Source: Candidatus Krumholzibacteriia bacterium (GTDB lineage Bacteria; Krumholzibacteriota; Krumholzibacteriia; LZORAL124-64-63). From it: DNA of 45,881 bases. Positions within the stretch are counted from its first letter, which is position 1; each line of letters opens with the position of its first letter. Position numbers and translations under genes: made by a program. The notes under the pieces were generated by a model. It made no database searches, had not been told where the DNA came from, and saw only the letters and a program-made list of their open reading frames with translations. The stretch is from NCBI GenBank assembly GCA_023270185.1, contig JAGLCY010000085.1:1-45881 (forward strand), read 5' to 3'. Shown piece by piece: positions 37,130 through 44,675 of this stretch.

Positions 37130-38785
37130 ATGAGCAATAAACCGCAATCCGCCCTGGAAAACTACGTGACCAAACGAGGCGGGGATTTAGGTCAATTCTA
37201 TCGCAGGCTGGAAGGACCCTTGCCCGACCACAACCTGATCCGCGTCGCCTCCTGGCTGATCATCCTGGGTTTCGCCACCTATTTCCTTATTCCACGCAGT
37301 CCGATGCCCATCCAGTTGACCTATGAATTGGATTTGGAAAAAGCTCCCAGCGGCAGTTTGACAATCACCCTGATCGCTGAAGGTGATCTGCCTCGACACC
37401 TGGATCTCGAATTTCCCCCCGGAGTTTTCGGCAACGTCATGAACGGGGTCCACCCCCATAGCGCAACGGCAAATGAACTGAATCCTGACGGTAGCCGGGG
37501 AAAATCCCTGGCAGTGAACAGAACCCCGGACGGGTGGCGGCTGGCCACCGGTGGCGCGAACCGGGCGGGATTCATCTATCAAGTCGACCTTAACCAGATC
37601 CAAAGTCTGGATGCCGATGTGCGACGTCACATCTCCACTCCGGTGGCCGGGGGTTTGAGGGTGGCCGGCTTCGAGGTTTTCCTGCAGCCGGCAGGTCTGG
37701 AAGTCAATGACATCACCGTCACGGTTTACAACCCCGAGAACCTCAAGGTGCTGACTCCCTGGCCGGCCCTGATCCAGAACCGCGACCGAATCATCAAGAC
37801 CACGCCCCAGGGTACGATCCAACAGGCCAACGTCAGCCCGGGCCAGGGTTATCTGCCCACGGAAGGCGTGCCCCCCCTGAACCACACCGACCCAGGCAAG
37901 TCTCCCTCCACCCAACCGGTACCCGAGAACCTGTTGTTTCATCCCCGGAATCTGGCTGACCTCAACAACGCCCTGATGATCTGTGGCGACCTCAGGATCT
38001 TGTCAACCCAGGTCCGCGAATGCGTCATCCAATTGGCGACCGATCACCCCTGGGAATTCCCCCTCGGCAGCGCTCTGGACATGGTCCGTCGCATCGCGCG
38101 GACGGAAATGGGTTTTTTCGGATCGGCTCCCACATCCCAGATCACGGTGATCCTGTCCGTGAATCAGATCGGCGGACGAGATAGATTCGATATCTACGGC
38201 GTGCACACCGGCAGTTCCATACTCGTGATGATGGACCCGAAAACAACCTGGGGAGACCTTGAGGAACAATCCGCCAGTGTCATCGCCCATGAGATGTTCC
38301 ACGGCTGGTTGGGAGAGGCGATTCCCCAGAGGGATCCGGACATGTTGTGGTTCACCGAAGGCGCCACCACCTGGTACTCCGCCCGGATGCTGACCGCGGC
38401 AGGGATATGGACACCGGATCATGCCCGGGCGGTCCTCGAAGCACGCCTGGAACGGGATTACAAACTGAGCCCCCTGAAGACCCAGATGTCCGTGGCCGAA
38501 GCAGCGTCCGAAGTAATGGCCGGGCCCGATCAGATCCGCTTCGCCTACGCCGGCGGCGTGAACGCCTGTCTTAATCTGGATCTGTGGCTGGCCAATCAAT
38601 CCGGGAAAGTCGGGCCTCTGGATCTGGTCCTGCGCCACTTGTATGAAAACCGGGACGGTTCGCCCCTGACCCGTCTGACCCTCGAAGCGGCCATCCTGGA
38701 AGTGACGGGTGTCGACTGCAGCGTCTGGTTGGATGACCATGTGTACAAGAAATCCACCTTGCCCACTGCTATCAGGTTGATTTAA
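37130..38785 (+). CDS. Membrane-anchored gluzincin metallopeptidase (M61/M1-like)
   Basis: N-terminal TM (VASWLIILGFATYFLI); VIAHEMFHGWLGEAIPQRDPDMLWFTEGATTWYSARML (HExxH + downstream E). Confidence 0.75.
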   Translation: MSNKPQSALENYVTKRGGDLGQFYRRLEGPLPDHNLIRVASWLIILGFATYFLIPRSPMPIQLTYELDLEKAPSGSLTITLIAEGDLPRHLDLEFPPGVFGNVMNGVHPHSATANELNPDGSRGKSLAVNRTPDGWRLATGGANRAGFIYQVDLNQIQSLDADVRRHISTPVAGGLRVAGFEVFLQPAGLEVNDITVTVYNPENLKVLTPWPALIQNRDRIIKTTPQGTIQQANVSPGQGYLPTEGVPPLNHTDPGKSPSTQPVPENLLFHPRNLADLNNALMICGDLRILSTQVRECVIQLATDHPWEFPLGSALDMVRRIARTEMGFFGSAPTSQITVILSVNQIGGRDRFDIYGVHTGSSILVMMDPKTTWGDLEEQSASVIAHEMFHGWLGEAIPQRDPDMLWFTEGATTWYSARMLTAAGIWTPDHARAVLEARLERDYKLSPLKTQMSVAEAASEVMAGPDQIRFAYAGGVNACLNLDLWLANQSGKVGPLDLVLRHLYENRDGSPLTRLTLEAAILEVTGVDCSVWLDDHVYKKSTLPTAIRLI

Positions 38786-38790
38786 CTTCC

Positions 38791-38946
38791 TCATTGATCG
38801 ACTTCGGGATTTCTCGTCACTCTGGGGGCGTCGTTCCGCCACCTCCTGTGGTGGAATGACTCGGCATTCCGGGGCCTCCGCCATCCATGGCTCCGGACCC
38901 TCCATGACGCCCCAGATTGACGAGAAACCCCGAAGCCAATCAATCA
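38791..38946. repeat. Imperfect long inverted repeat (about 42-nt arms) enclosing two hairpins, upstream of metG
   Basis: Left arm 38791-38832 vs reverse complement of 38906-38946: about 36/41 matched positions with one 1-nt gap; internal hairpins 38830-38860 and 38865-38906. Confidence 0.85.
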
Positions 38947-38986
38947 GCAAGTCATATCAAGTTTTTTCAGACAGGCGGTTCTTGGC

Positions 38987-40693
38987 ATGGGGCAGGATAA
39001 AAAGTTTTCTCGTACCCTCGTTACCAGCGCGCTGCCGTATGCCAATGGGGAAATCCATCTGGGGCATCTTGCCGGAGCTTATCTGCCGGCGGATATTTAT
39101 GTGCGGTTTCTGAGAATGCGCGGCGAGGAAGTCTTGTATATCTGCGGTTCGGACGAGTTCGGGGTTCCCATCACCCTGACCGCCGAAAAGGAAGGCATCA
39201 CTCCCAAGGAACTGGTCGACCGGAACCACGCCTCGATCAAGAAGTCATTCGAGGGCTTCGGGATGAGCTTCGACAACTTCAGCCAGACCAGCCGGGAAAT
39301 CCACACCGAGACGGCCCAGGCTTTCTTCAGCGACCTGCATGGCCAGGGACTGTTCAAACAGAAAACCACCGACCAATACTACAGCCCGACCCAGGACCGC
39401 TTCCTGCCCGACCGGTACATCGAAGGGAAGTGTCCCAAGTGCAAGACCGAGGGCGCCCGCGGCGGCGAATGCGAAAGTTGCCTGGCCACCTTCAGTTCCA
39501 CCGAGCTGATCGATCCGCACAGCGTCCTGGACAACAGTCCTCTCGAACTGCGGCCCACGACCCACTGGTTCCTGCCCATGGGCGACTGGCAGGAAAAGCT
39601 GAGCGCCTATATCGACGACCATCCCGAGTGGAAGGACAACGTGAAGCAGTATTGCCGCGGCTATTTTGACAGTGGTCTGCAGGACCGCGCCATGACCCGC
39701 GACCTGGGCTGGGGAGTTCCCGTGCCCCTTCCCGACCACGAAGGCAAGGTGATGTTCGTGTGGTTCGAGGCCCCCGTCGGCTACATCTCCTCCACCCGCG
39801 AATGGGCCGCCGCCCAGGGCGATCCCGAAGCCTGGAAAACCTGGTGGCAGGACCCCGGCACCCGGCTGGTGCACTTCATCGGCAAGGACAACATCTTCTT
39901 CCACGCCATGCTGTTCCCGGCCATGCTCATGGCCCACAGCGAGGATTTCGTCGTCGCCGACAACGTGCCCGCCAACGAATTCCTGAATCTTGAAGGCCAA
40001 AAACTTTCGACCAGCCGCGGGTTCGCCGTCTGGTTGCCCGAGTTCCTGGAGAAGTTCCAGGCCGACCCCCTTCGCTACACCCTGGCCCGCAACCTGCCCG
40101 AAACCAGGGACATGAACTTCACCTGGGAAGGCTTCCAGGCCCGCAACAACAACGAACTGGGCAATAATTTCGGAAATCTGATCAACCGGGTTTTCACATT
40201 CATCCATAAATTTTTCGACGGCAAGGTGCCCGAGTGGTCCGAAGAAATGATGACCGACATGGACCGGCAGGCCCTGGATGAGGTTTCCGCCGATTTAGCC
40301 AAATGGGCCGGTCATCTGGAGAAGTTCGAGATCAAGGCCGCCATGGAGGCCTGCTTCCACGCGGGGCAGGTCGGCAACCGCTACTTCGACGAATCCGCCC
40401 CGTTCCGGACCCGCAAAACCGATCTGGAACGTTGCGGACACAGTCTGGGCGTCATCATCCAGATTCTGCGCATGCTGGCCCTGATGCTCGCGCCCGTGGT
40501 GCCGTTTGGCATGGATAAGCTGTGGAGTTGGCTGGGTATGGAGAGCGATCTGTGGCATGGCGGCTGGACCGAAGGCAACCGGGACATCCCCGGCGGCCGC
40601 CCTCTGGGCACACCTGAAATCCTGTTCCCACGGCTGGACGACGAACTGATCCAGCCGGAAATCGAGCGTCTGGCCCGGATGCTGGAAGAGTGA
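38987..40693 (+). CDS. metG: Methionine-tRNA ligase
   Basis: SALPYANGEIHLGHLAGAYLPADIYVRFLR, zinc-binding CPKCKTEGARGGECESC, GQKLSTSRGFAVWLPEF. Confidence 0.96.
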   Translation: MGQDKKFSRTLVTSALPYANGEIHLGHLAGAYLPADIYVRFLRMRGEEVLYICGSDEFGVPITLTAEKEGITPKELVDRNHASIKKSFEGFGMSFDNFSQTSREIHTETAQAFFSDLHGQGLFKQKTTDQYYSPTQDRFLPDRYIEGKCPKCKTEGARGGECESCLATFSSTELIDPHSVLDNSPLELRPTTHWFLPMGDWQEKLSAYIDDHPEWKDNVKQYCRGYFDSGLQDRAMTRDLGWGVPVPLPDHEGKVMFVWFEAPVGYISSTREWAAAQGDPEAWKTWWQDPGTRLVHFIGKDNIFFHAMLFPAMLMAHSEDFVVADNVPANEFLNLEGQKLSTSRGFAVWLPEFLEKFQADPLRYTLARNLPETRDMNFTWEGFQARNNNELGNNFGNLINRVFTFIHKFFDGKVPEWSEEMMTDMDRQALDEVSADLAKWAGHLEKFEIKAAMEACFHAGQVGNRYFDESAPFRTRKTDLERCGHSLGVIIQILRMLALMLAPVVPFGMDKLWSWLGMESDLWHGGWTEGNRDIPGGRPLGTPEILFPRLDDELIQPEIERLARMLEE

Positions 40694-42227: not shown

Positions 42228-42609
42228 CTACCTGGAAGAGTCGAAGGCCGCCTTACGGGCGGCCTTCTGCATACTGTCGTGTTCAGCGGATGTCAGGGCC
42301 AGAAGCTCCACCGCCTGTTGGTATTCACCCTCCAGGTCCAGGCCGAACAGGGAACGGTCATCCGTATTCAGGCAACAGGGCACCCCGGCGTCCAGGAAGG
42401 TCCGCAGGGGTGCGCAACAGGGAAGTGACGTGTTTGAAGAGTTCGAGAAAACCGTGGAATCCATCAAAGCGGTAAGCGCCGCCGTCCTTGGTCAGACAGG
42501 CGGCCGGCAGGCCCGGTTGGCCGTATTTTTCAGCCAGAAGGATCAGCCGGGCGGGAGTGACTGATCCTTCCAGATGCGTATGAAGTTCGACCCTCCCTTT
42601 CGGGATCAT
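42228..42609 (-). pseudogene. add: Adenosine deaminase remnant with internal deletion and frameshift
   Basis: Frame 1: MIPKGRVELHTHLEGSVTPARLILLAEKYG..FDGFHGFLELFKHVTSLLRTPAD (N-terminus). Then frame 2: PLRTFLDAGVPCCLNTDDRSLFGLDLEGEYQQAVELLALTSAEHDSMQKAARKAAFDSSR* (C-terminus). Middle of the enzyme missing. Confidence 0.85.
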
Positions 42610-44675
42610 CGGGCCAGGACCACCCTCTGGTTCAGGGCCTTTTCGCCATTCTCCAGGCGAATGAGATACAGACCGGAAGCCGCCGCGGCGCCCGATATGG
42701 TTCGTCCGTTCCAGATCATGTGCTGCCAGTCGCCGGTGCCCGGACCCTGGTAAAGCTCGCTCACCAGACGGCCGCGCAGATCCATGATCCGCACGCTGAT
42801 GTTCTCGGTGGGCGCGGCGCGGAAACGTATCGTCACCGCGGGATTGGCCGGGTTGGGCCATGCCGGATCCAGAGCCAGCAGGGAACCGAAATTCAGATGT
42901 GTGGACAGATCACCGGGTCCGTCCAGGGATTCCATCGCGAAGACAAAACCATCACCGGTAACGGCATTCAGCGAGTAGCTGAGACTGACGGCGTTGGCGT
43001 AAGTCTCCACAGGGACCTGATCGAGGTAGGTGAACCCGTCACCGCTTATCGACAAGATGCCCGGGACCTCCCCTTGACCCCACTGGGCCTGTCCGGCCCA
43101 GATCGCGGTCTCATCGAGCAGACCGCCCTGGCCATCGCGCACCTGGCGGAACAATTGGACATCGCCGAACTGGTCCGAAGACAGGGCGAATGAAAAGGAA
43201 AGCCGGACGACGTCCGCGGCGCCGGTCCCGGCCCAGGTCGCGGTCCAGAAGGAGAAGAACGACGGCACCACGTCGGTGGAAGAATCCTGCAGGTGGATGA
43301 AACCGGTCACCGCATCGTTCATCTTGTTACCTTCGGGGGCACCGACCGCAAGATCCCAGTCCCCGTCTCCGTCGAAATCACCGGCGGAGGCCACGGCCCA
43401 CCCGTAGTGATCGTTGGCTTCGGCACCGGGTTTCATGGGCACATTGCCCTTGAACTCCAGATCCTTGGCGCTGGTTGCGAGACTGCCGCCTTCGAAAATA
43501 TAGGCTCTGCCGCAATTCGCGGCGGGCAGGTTGTGGAAAGGCGCGCCGACCAGGACATCATCGGCGAAGTTCAGCGTGAAATCCCAGATTCGGTCCAGGG
43601 AATAACCGAAATTATCGCCCGCGACCTCGCCCAGGACATAACGGTCGCCCGTTGTGGAGGGGCCGGACGCGCTGCCGTAAACGATTTCGACCCGGCCCGC
43701 GGCCAAGCCGCCGTTATTGTTGAAGGGTCCGCCAATGGCCAGGTCCGTATGAGTGTCCCCTCCCCAATCACCCACACCACGAACCGCGAATCCGTATTGG
43801 CTACCGGGAGCGATGCCGCCGCATTGGATCTCATGATCAACCTTGTCATCGGGAATGATATCGCCTTCGTAGACATAGACCGCCCCGGCGTCCAGGCCAC
43901 CGTGCGTATCGTTCCACGGAGCTCCAACCGCAACGCAATCATCCCCATCCAGGAAATCACCGGCGTCGGTCACCGACCAGCCGAAGGCGTCATTGGAAAA
44001 TTCACCCGTCAACTTCGTCGCGTCGGCCAGATCCGTGCTCACACCGTCCTTGTGTCCGTAGATGACATAGGCGCTGCCCGCGCGGCCGGGTGACGCCACG
44101 TCAAGGGCGGGAGCACCGACGATGAAATCGGCCACGCCGTCGTTGTTGAAATCACCGGCGGCGGAGATCGAATACCCGAAATTGTCTCCCCCTGTTTCGC
44201 CGATGATTCCCACGGGTGTGATCGACGAGAGATCGCTATTGCCGTAAAAAACATAAACCTTGCCCTTGGTGGATCCGTCTTCATCGGAGTCCGGAGCCCC
44301 CACGGCCCAATCAGGCACATTGTCATCGTTCACGTCGCCGATCCGGGCCACGGCAAAGCCGAACTTCTCCTCGTTCACACCGGTCCACACGAAGTCGGCT
44401 TCAACGGTCAGTTCCTTGTTGCCGAGCCATATGTGTACGGCCCCATGATTTCCACCGTTCGGCGCGCCAGGCGCACCAACCAGGAACTCCCAGCGCAGAT
44501 CCCCGTTCAAATCCTCCAGTTCGGTCATCGCCGCTCCAAAGAGCGTCCCTCCGGACCCGGTCTCGTCAGTCAGGTGAACCGCGCCCCAGGCGGGCACCAC
44601 CAGAACCAGCAAGGCACCAAAAAGAACCATGGGAAAGAACACGGCACGCCAGTTGCTTGTTTGATTCGTAAACAA
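42606..44675 (-). CDS. FG-GAP/integrin-alpha-like repeat protein with C-terminal FlgD-Ig-like sorting-type domain, secreted
   Basis: Repeated IGDVNDDNVPDWAVGAP, AGDFNNDGVADFIVGAP, AGDFDGDGDWDLAVGAP; C-terminus ISVRIMDLRGRLVSELYQGPGTGDWQHMIWNGRTISGAAAASGLYLIRL. Confidence 0.88.
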   Translation of the reverse strand: MFTNQTSNWRAVFFPMVLFGALLVLVVPAWGAVHLTDETGSGGTLFGAAMTELEDLNGDLRWEFLVGAPGAPNGGNHGAVHIWLGNKELTVEADFVWTGVNEEKFGFAVARIGDVNDDNVPDWAVGAPDSDEDGSTKGKVYVFYGNSDLSSITPVGIIGETGGDNFGYSISAAGDFNNDGVADFIVGAPALDVASPGRAGSAYVIYGHKDGVSTDLADATKLTGEFSNDAFGWSVTDAGDFLDGDDCVAVGAPWNDTHGGLDAGAVYVYEGDIIPDDKVDHEIQCGGIAPGSQYGFAVRGVGDWGGDTHTDLAIGGPFNNNGGLAAGRVEIVYGSASGPSTTGDRYVLGEVAGDNFGYSLDRIWDFTLNFADDVLVGAPFHNLPAANCGRAYIFEGGSLATSAKDLEFKGNVPMKPGAEANDHYGWAVASAGDFDGDGDWDLAVGAPEGNKMNDAVTGFIHLQDSSTDVVPSFFSFWTATWAGTGAADVVRLSFSFALSSDQFGDVQLFRQVRDGQGGLLDETAIWAGQAQWGQGEVPGILSISGDGFTYLDQVPVETYANAVSLSYSLNAVTGDGFVFAMESLDGPGDLSTHLNFGSLLALDPAWPNPANPAVTIRFRAAPTENISVRIMDLRGRLVSELYQGPGTGDWQHMIWNGRTISGAAAASGLYLIRLENGEKALNQRVVLAR

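Follow-up and report, generated by a model that had tools for sequence, protein, structure and literature searches.

The palindromic structure that separates a metallopeptidase gene from metG in the analyzed stretch of a Candidatus Krumholzibacteriia genome (45,881 nt in full, hereafter the window) is probably a member of an interspersed family of non-autonomous palindromic elements akin to the TwoAYGGAY RNA motif, whose arms have been homogenized and extended by template switching. Overall, we regard the element as a widely distributed variant of a motif already known, though uncharacterized; the way in which its arms evolve is unusual.

A palindromic element between a peptidase gene and metG

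The whole element spans positions 38777 to 38960 and is assigned to the minus strand (here called the GGA strand); its extent is set by arm pairing, and it is matched by a covariance model of the family and, below threshold, by Rfam family RF01731 (TwoAYGGAY). Upstream lies a gene for an M1/M61-type metallopeptidase (37130 to 38785, plus strand; Pfam PF01433 and PF05299) with its stop codon at 38783 to 38785. The start of metG, which encodes methionine--tRNA ligase (38987 to 40693, plus strand; NCBIfam NF001100 and TIGR00398, above cut-off), follows the element at a distance of ~27 nt, and this gene is regarded as a downstream neighbor only. Both neighboring genes lie on the strand opposite to the GGA strand. 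A preliminary description of the locus had reported near-complementary arms enclosing two hairpins at 38791 to 38946; the arms and both hairpins are present there as described, but the true extent of the arms is wider, with 38777 to 38827 (5′ arm on the plus strand) and 38910 to 38960 (3′ arm on the plus strand) forming Watson-Crick pairs at 43 of 51 positions in an arm search. Because the arms are longer than first described, the 5′ arm starts within the last peptidase codons. Its outer part is host sequence, comprising these codons and the stop, plus 3′ flank, while the outer part of the 3′ arm (GCAAGTCATATCAA) repeats the end of the peptidase gene in inverted form, the 3′ end of the gene being the template-like arm.

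Read along the minus strand, the order of parts is basal arm, hairpin A, short linker, hairpin B and basal arm. On the GGA strand, hairpin A (38865 to 38906, minus strand) has a GCCAUGGAUGGC apex and a pair of symmetric GGA/GGA internal loops, and hairpin B (38830 to 38860, minus strand) has the loop ACAGGAGGU. Folding of 38785 to 38990 yielded -95.2 kcal/mol on the plus strand (z = -6.65) and -106.3 kcal/mol on the minus strand (z = -7.46), with 0 of 200 dinucleotide-preserving shuffles as good in either case. The window copy scored 111.3 bits against the family covariance model (38811 to 38922, minus strand), of which it is itself a training member, and 26.5 bits against RF01731 (38793 to 38944, minus strand), below the cut-off of 43. 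No Rfam family reached its gathering score in the window, hence there was no leader-family match, and matches to the archaeal C/D snoRNAs sR9 and sR5 were rejected as lying below cut-off and covering one arm only. Neither a sigma-70-like promoter nor an intrinsic terminator was found within 38700 to 39050; this interval holds no T-run and no terminator-like site. Elsewhere in the window, a large open reading frame (42606 to 44675, minus strand) appeared, as judged by eye, to be FG-GAP-repeat-like with a C-terminal sorting-type domain.

Dispersal of copies within and between genomes

The family covariance model was built from 13 copies, and a separate second model was used for counts in Marinobacter. 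By the 13-copy model the window genome holds 8 copies, its two genus mates 10 and 8, and four members of genus g6 between 33 and 55 each, while no copy was found in several other genera of the window family. Six Marinobacter genomes contained 62 to 141 copies each (second model). A pattern scan of named genomes returned at least 120 stretches, and the matches listed came chiefly from Marinobacter species and Planctomycetota MAGs, with one Krumholzibacteriota MAG included; searches of plasmid and phage collections found no match to the element. Dispersed copies lie between genes, in many cases immediately after a stop codon. In the window family, the gene 3′ of the GGA strand is antisense (convergent) to that strand in 24 of 31 copies, and no clear bias of gene orientation was seen around Marinobacter copies. 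Copies less than 400 bp apart followed the order GGA(-) then GGA(+) in 13 of 13 pairs, whereas the order of distant pairs was mixed; the window copy has no inverted partner nearby. The core hairpins are conserved between copies, the apex stem of hairpin A being invariant in 13 aligned copies, and both core helices and arms are backed by two-sided changes relative to shuffles and slid controls (arm helix: 97.6% paired, with such changes at 28 of 29 pairs).

Occupied and empty sites, and gene ends mirrored in the arms

Occupied and empty sites were seen at metG, at tmRNA and at two Marinobacter loci. Across species, one Marinobacter locus was found with the element in one orientation, with the core inverted, with arms lacking the core, and with no element. 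The core is inverted at the orthologous locus in L316 and L320 compared with L303 and L313, and orthologous sites L310 and L300 retain arms without a core, as would follow from its deletion. In L320, the inverted copy lies between two CTCCG motifs (a 5-bp direct repeat), and the empty site L299 has one similar copy of this motif.

Several arms mirror the end of the adjoining gene. Empty metG-junction sites of other genera keep TTGATATAACTTCC yet lack GCAAGTCATATCAA, and in G001 the end of the 3′ arm (CCAAGGAAGTCATATCAAG) is the reverse complement, with one mismatch, of the peptidase gene end (CTTGATATAACTTCCTTGG), which also occurs in single copy in empty sites of other genera. In the G002 copy at tmRNA, the stem takes in the final ~20 nt of that RNA; relatives have no element behind tmRNA. 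The 3′ end of glmS is mirrored by a noncoding arm in two genera, with the stop codon of the respective gene reproduced in each mirror (TGA in G000, TAG in G027), and the alignment of the GlmS C-terminus with its family profile reaches the profile end. The infB end is mirrored at 17 of 24 positions and that of a DUF3078 gene at 21 of 24. In a fixed 24-nt mirror test of 35 copies, agreement with a copy's own mirror averaged 43%, versus 29% (sd 10%) for the mirrors of other copies; at least 17 of 24 positions agreed in seven of the 35, two of which were set aside, and ~28 of the 35 lacked a convincing mirror of their own gene end. Gene-end mirrors at the g6 loci L223 and L252 were discarded because the reading frame continues into element sequence. 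At these two loci, neighboring reading frames enter the element arms and the stop codon is apparently supplied by the element.

Basal arms vary between copies and change mostly on both sides

Arms of 83 Marinobacter copies measure 25 to 33 bp, mostly 27 to 31. Their outer 18 nt are 94% complementary within a copy and 41% alike between copies, and pairing the left arm of one copy with the right arm of another gave 40%. Copies in g6, unlike those of Marinobacter, share their arms. Comparison of flank-matched copies in different species, pairs that are not wholly phylogenetically independent and a few of which may be non-orthologous, gave 142 compensated double changes and 51 single ones, with ~13 compensated changes expected if the two sides were independent. 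Transversions, for which no G.U intermediate is possible, made up 80 of the 142 compensated doubles, and in the least diverged pairs almost every change was already two-sided. G000 and G002 show 7 single and 0 compensated differences at the window locus, which indicates that the window copy is not being homogenized now.

Mismatches on the GGA strand were counted under a wobble-neutral scoring, with flanks as comparison. Arms of 130 scan copies contained 110 G.T versus 24 A.C mismatches (flanks: 423 versus 602), and those of the window family 49 G.T versus 28 A.C. Since only the GGA strand tolerates wobbles, it is the folding strand, antisense to metG, and its pairing, as RNA or as single-stranded DNA, is under selection. 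Two G-U wobbles described earlier on the plus strand of the hairpin at 38830 to 38860 are real for the window copy, but wobbles of the family as a whole fall on the other strand.

Template switching as the probable mode of arm evolution

Together, these patterns point to template switching, by which arm homogenization, hairpin creation and spacer inversion have been described (PMC8794818, PMC8604942). During replication, the nascent strand would take one arm as the template for the other; such switching would keep the arms complementary, could invert or delete the core, and would make the stem grow outward. If one arm falls within a gene, gene-damaging conversions would be removed and only copying from gene to intergenic DNA would survive selection, so that the intergenic arm would turn into a mirror of the gene 3′ end. 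Spread of copies would depend on some agent acting on the folded GGA strand, either as single-stranded DNA or as RNA, and any effect on metG would be incidental. Selection for pairing alone could also yield compensated changes; conversely, the excess of G.T mismatches speaks against purely neutral copying, and selection and copying both seem to act.

Alternative explanations

The preliminary description had favored an RNA acting on the metG side, and the short distance to metG and the strong fold on the plus strand would both suit a leader or riboswitch-like regulator of this gene. We nevertheless consider this very improbable: the element precedes metG in all three genomes of the window genus, but five other genera (G019, G016, G003, G011 and G005) have the same peptidase-metG junction with an ordinary short spacer and no element; a BLASTN search for scattered copies and a search with the TwoAYGGAY model both recovered others at unrelated loci of the same genome; the same element sits behind infB, glmS, tmRNA and tRNA-Leu (in the window genome or related genomes); and the conserved loops lie on the strand antisense to metG. 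A metG leader or T-box, which also found no Rfam leader match, is therefore refuted as a role of the family, and a local effect on metG read-through is possible. Another kind of functional RNA, a CsrA/RsmA sponge or 3′-UTR element, would have the GGA strand transcribed, with two loops binding CsrA dimers and the arms covarying through selected RNA pairing. The loop of hairpin A, in the window copy too, fits the RsmE binding motif CANGGANG (PMC6849547), as does that of hairpin B in Marinobacter (92 of 113 scan copies); csrA is present in 32 of 38 family genomes; TwoAYGGAY has already been suggested to bind CsrA (PMC4333381); and the confinement of tolerated wobbles to the GGA strand also speaks for such an RNA. 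However, hairpin B of the window family is one base short (ACAGGANGU) and frequently without GGA (ACACGAKGU), that of the window copy does not fit CANGGANG, csrA is equally common in genomes without copies, the GGA strand in the window is antisense to both neighbors with no promoter found, and the mirrored coding sequence is left unexplained, which makes this reading doubtful.

A MITE- or REP-like element, the fallback of the earlier account, comes close in kind, but the arms are unlike between copies, target-site duplication is not general and a REP-type transposase is absent. A classical MITE (a DNA transposon that has lost internal sequence, keeps its terminal inverted repeats and depends on a DDE transposase for movement) would fit the dispersed, palindromic, intergenic copies with their occupied and empty sites, the arms common to g6 copies and the CTCCG repeat around the L320 element relative to the empty L299. 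It is unlikely given the 41% likeness between Marinobacter arms and a survey of target-site duplication over 102 copies, which gave no general signal. No transposase or other mobilizer was found in the family genomes: a Y1 transposase is encoded in 3 of 38, none of them in g1 or g6, and RAYT/Y1 and reverse transcriptase were both rejected as mobilizers because neither tracks copy number. These counts weigh on a REP/REPIN-type element that a RAYT (Y1) transposase would mobilize by acting on single-stranded DNA. The strand-specific fold and the single inverted order of close pairs (13/13) would argue for such an element; genera with 8 to 55 copies lack the Y1 transposase, and the element is far larger than a REP and its stem sequence is not fixed, so that we hold this explanation to be quite improbable. 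Tentatively, the family could represent a new class of mobile element whose arms, instead of traveling with it, are formed anew at every site: its folded core would self-prime or redirect replication so that adjacent host DNA is copied backwards into private, host-derived arms. This is possible, though less likely than not.

Relationship to known motifs

Like TwoAYGGAY RNA (RF01731; Weinberg 2010, PMC2864571), the element has a three-way junction, a long basal stem poorly conserved in sequence, and a GCCAUGGAUGGC hairpin, all on the same strand, and the TwoAYGGAY cut-off is passed by the G001 copy (45.9 bits) and by a Colwellia locus with the element pattern (47.9 bits). It departs from that motif in the subthreshold score of the window copy, in having one AYGGAY loop of two there (AUGGAU in hairpin A, ACAGGAGGU in hairpin B) and in its GGA/GGA internal loops; most scanned Marinobacter and Krumholzibacteriota loci received no TwoAYGGAY call at the Rfam threshold. 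No description of high-copy dispersal or of host-mirrored arms was found in the literature examined. With REP/REPIN and MITE-like palindromes the family shares extragenic, dispersed and palindromic copies and inverted pairs, and it differs from them in the missing Y1 transposase of the copy-bearing genera g1 and g6, the variable arms and the lack of a general target duplication. Homogenized arms, stems made from copied flanking DNA and inverted spacers are likewise features of quasi-palindrome correction and template-switch mutations (PMC8794818, PMC8604942), which are known as scattered events; here they would be the persistent way in which a dispersed family evolves around its conserved core.

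Stem covariation is usually read as proof of a selected RNA. In this large natural family, much of the covariation can arise by DNA template copying, including at the ends of glmS, infB and tmRNA, while the strand bias of wobbles still marks the folding strand and offers a practical way to tell the two causes apart. A candidate RNA motif is thereby recast as part of a dispersed element that attains more than 100 copies in some genomes, and the question of its mobilizer becomes testable in culturable Marinobacter.

A second Rfam family also touches the element: the infB copy of G032 (L213:1505-1611, minus strand) scored 44.6 bits against RF02928 (Actinomyces-1; cut-off 39.1), which the other scanned copies do not reach. 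The two Rfam motifs, TwoAYGGAY and Actinomyces-1, may thus overlap in the element family. Planctomycetota loci, including L053, L055 and L088, hold a relative that is longer and differs in construction, with the conserved segment ACGTCCGGCGA preceding the 3′ arm. In Marinobacter, L074, L109, L132, L152 and L153 carry an extra structured insert of ~60-80 nt in hairpin B (TATGAAGC..GCTTCATG.., GGACCCC..GGGG), a second module common to several copies.
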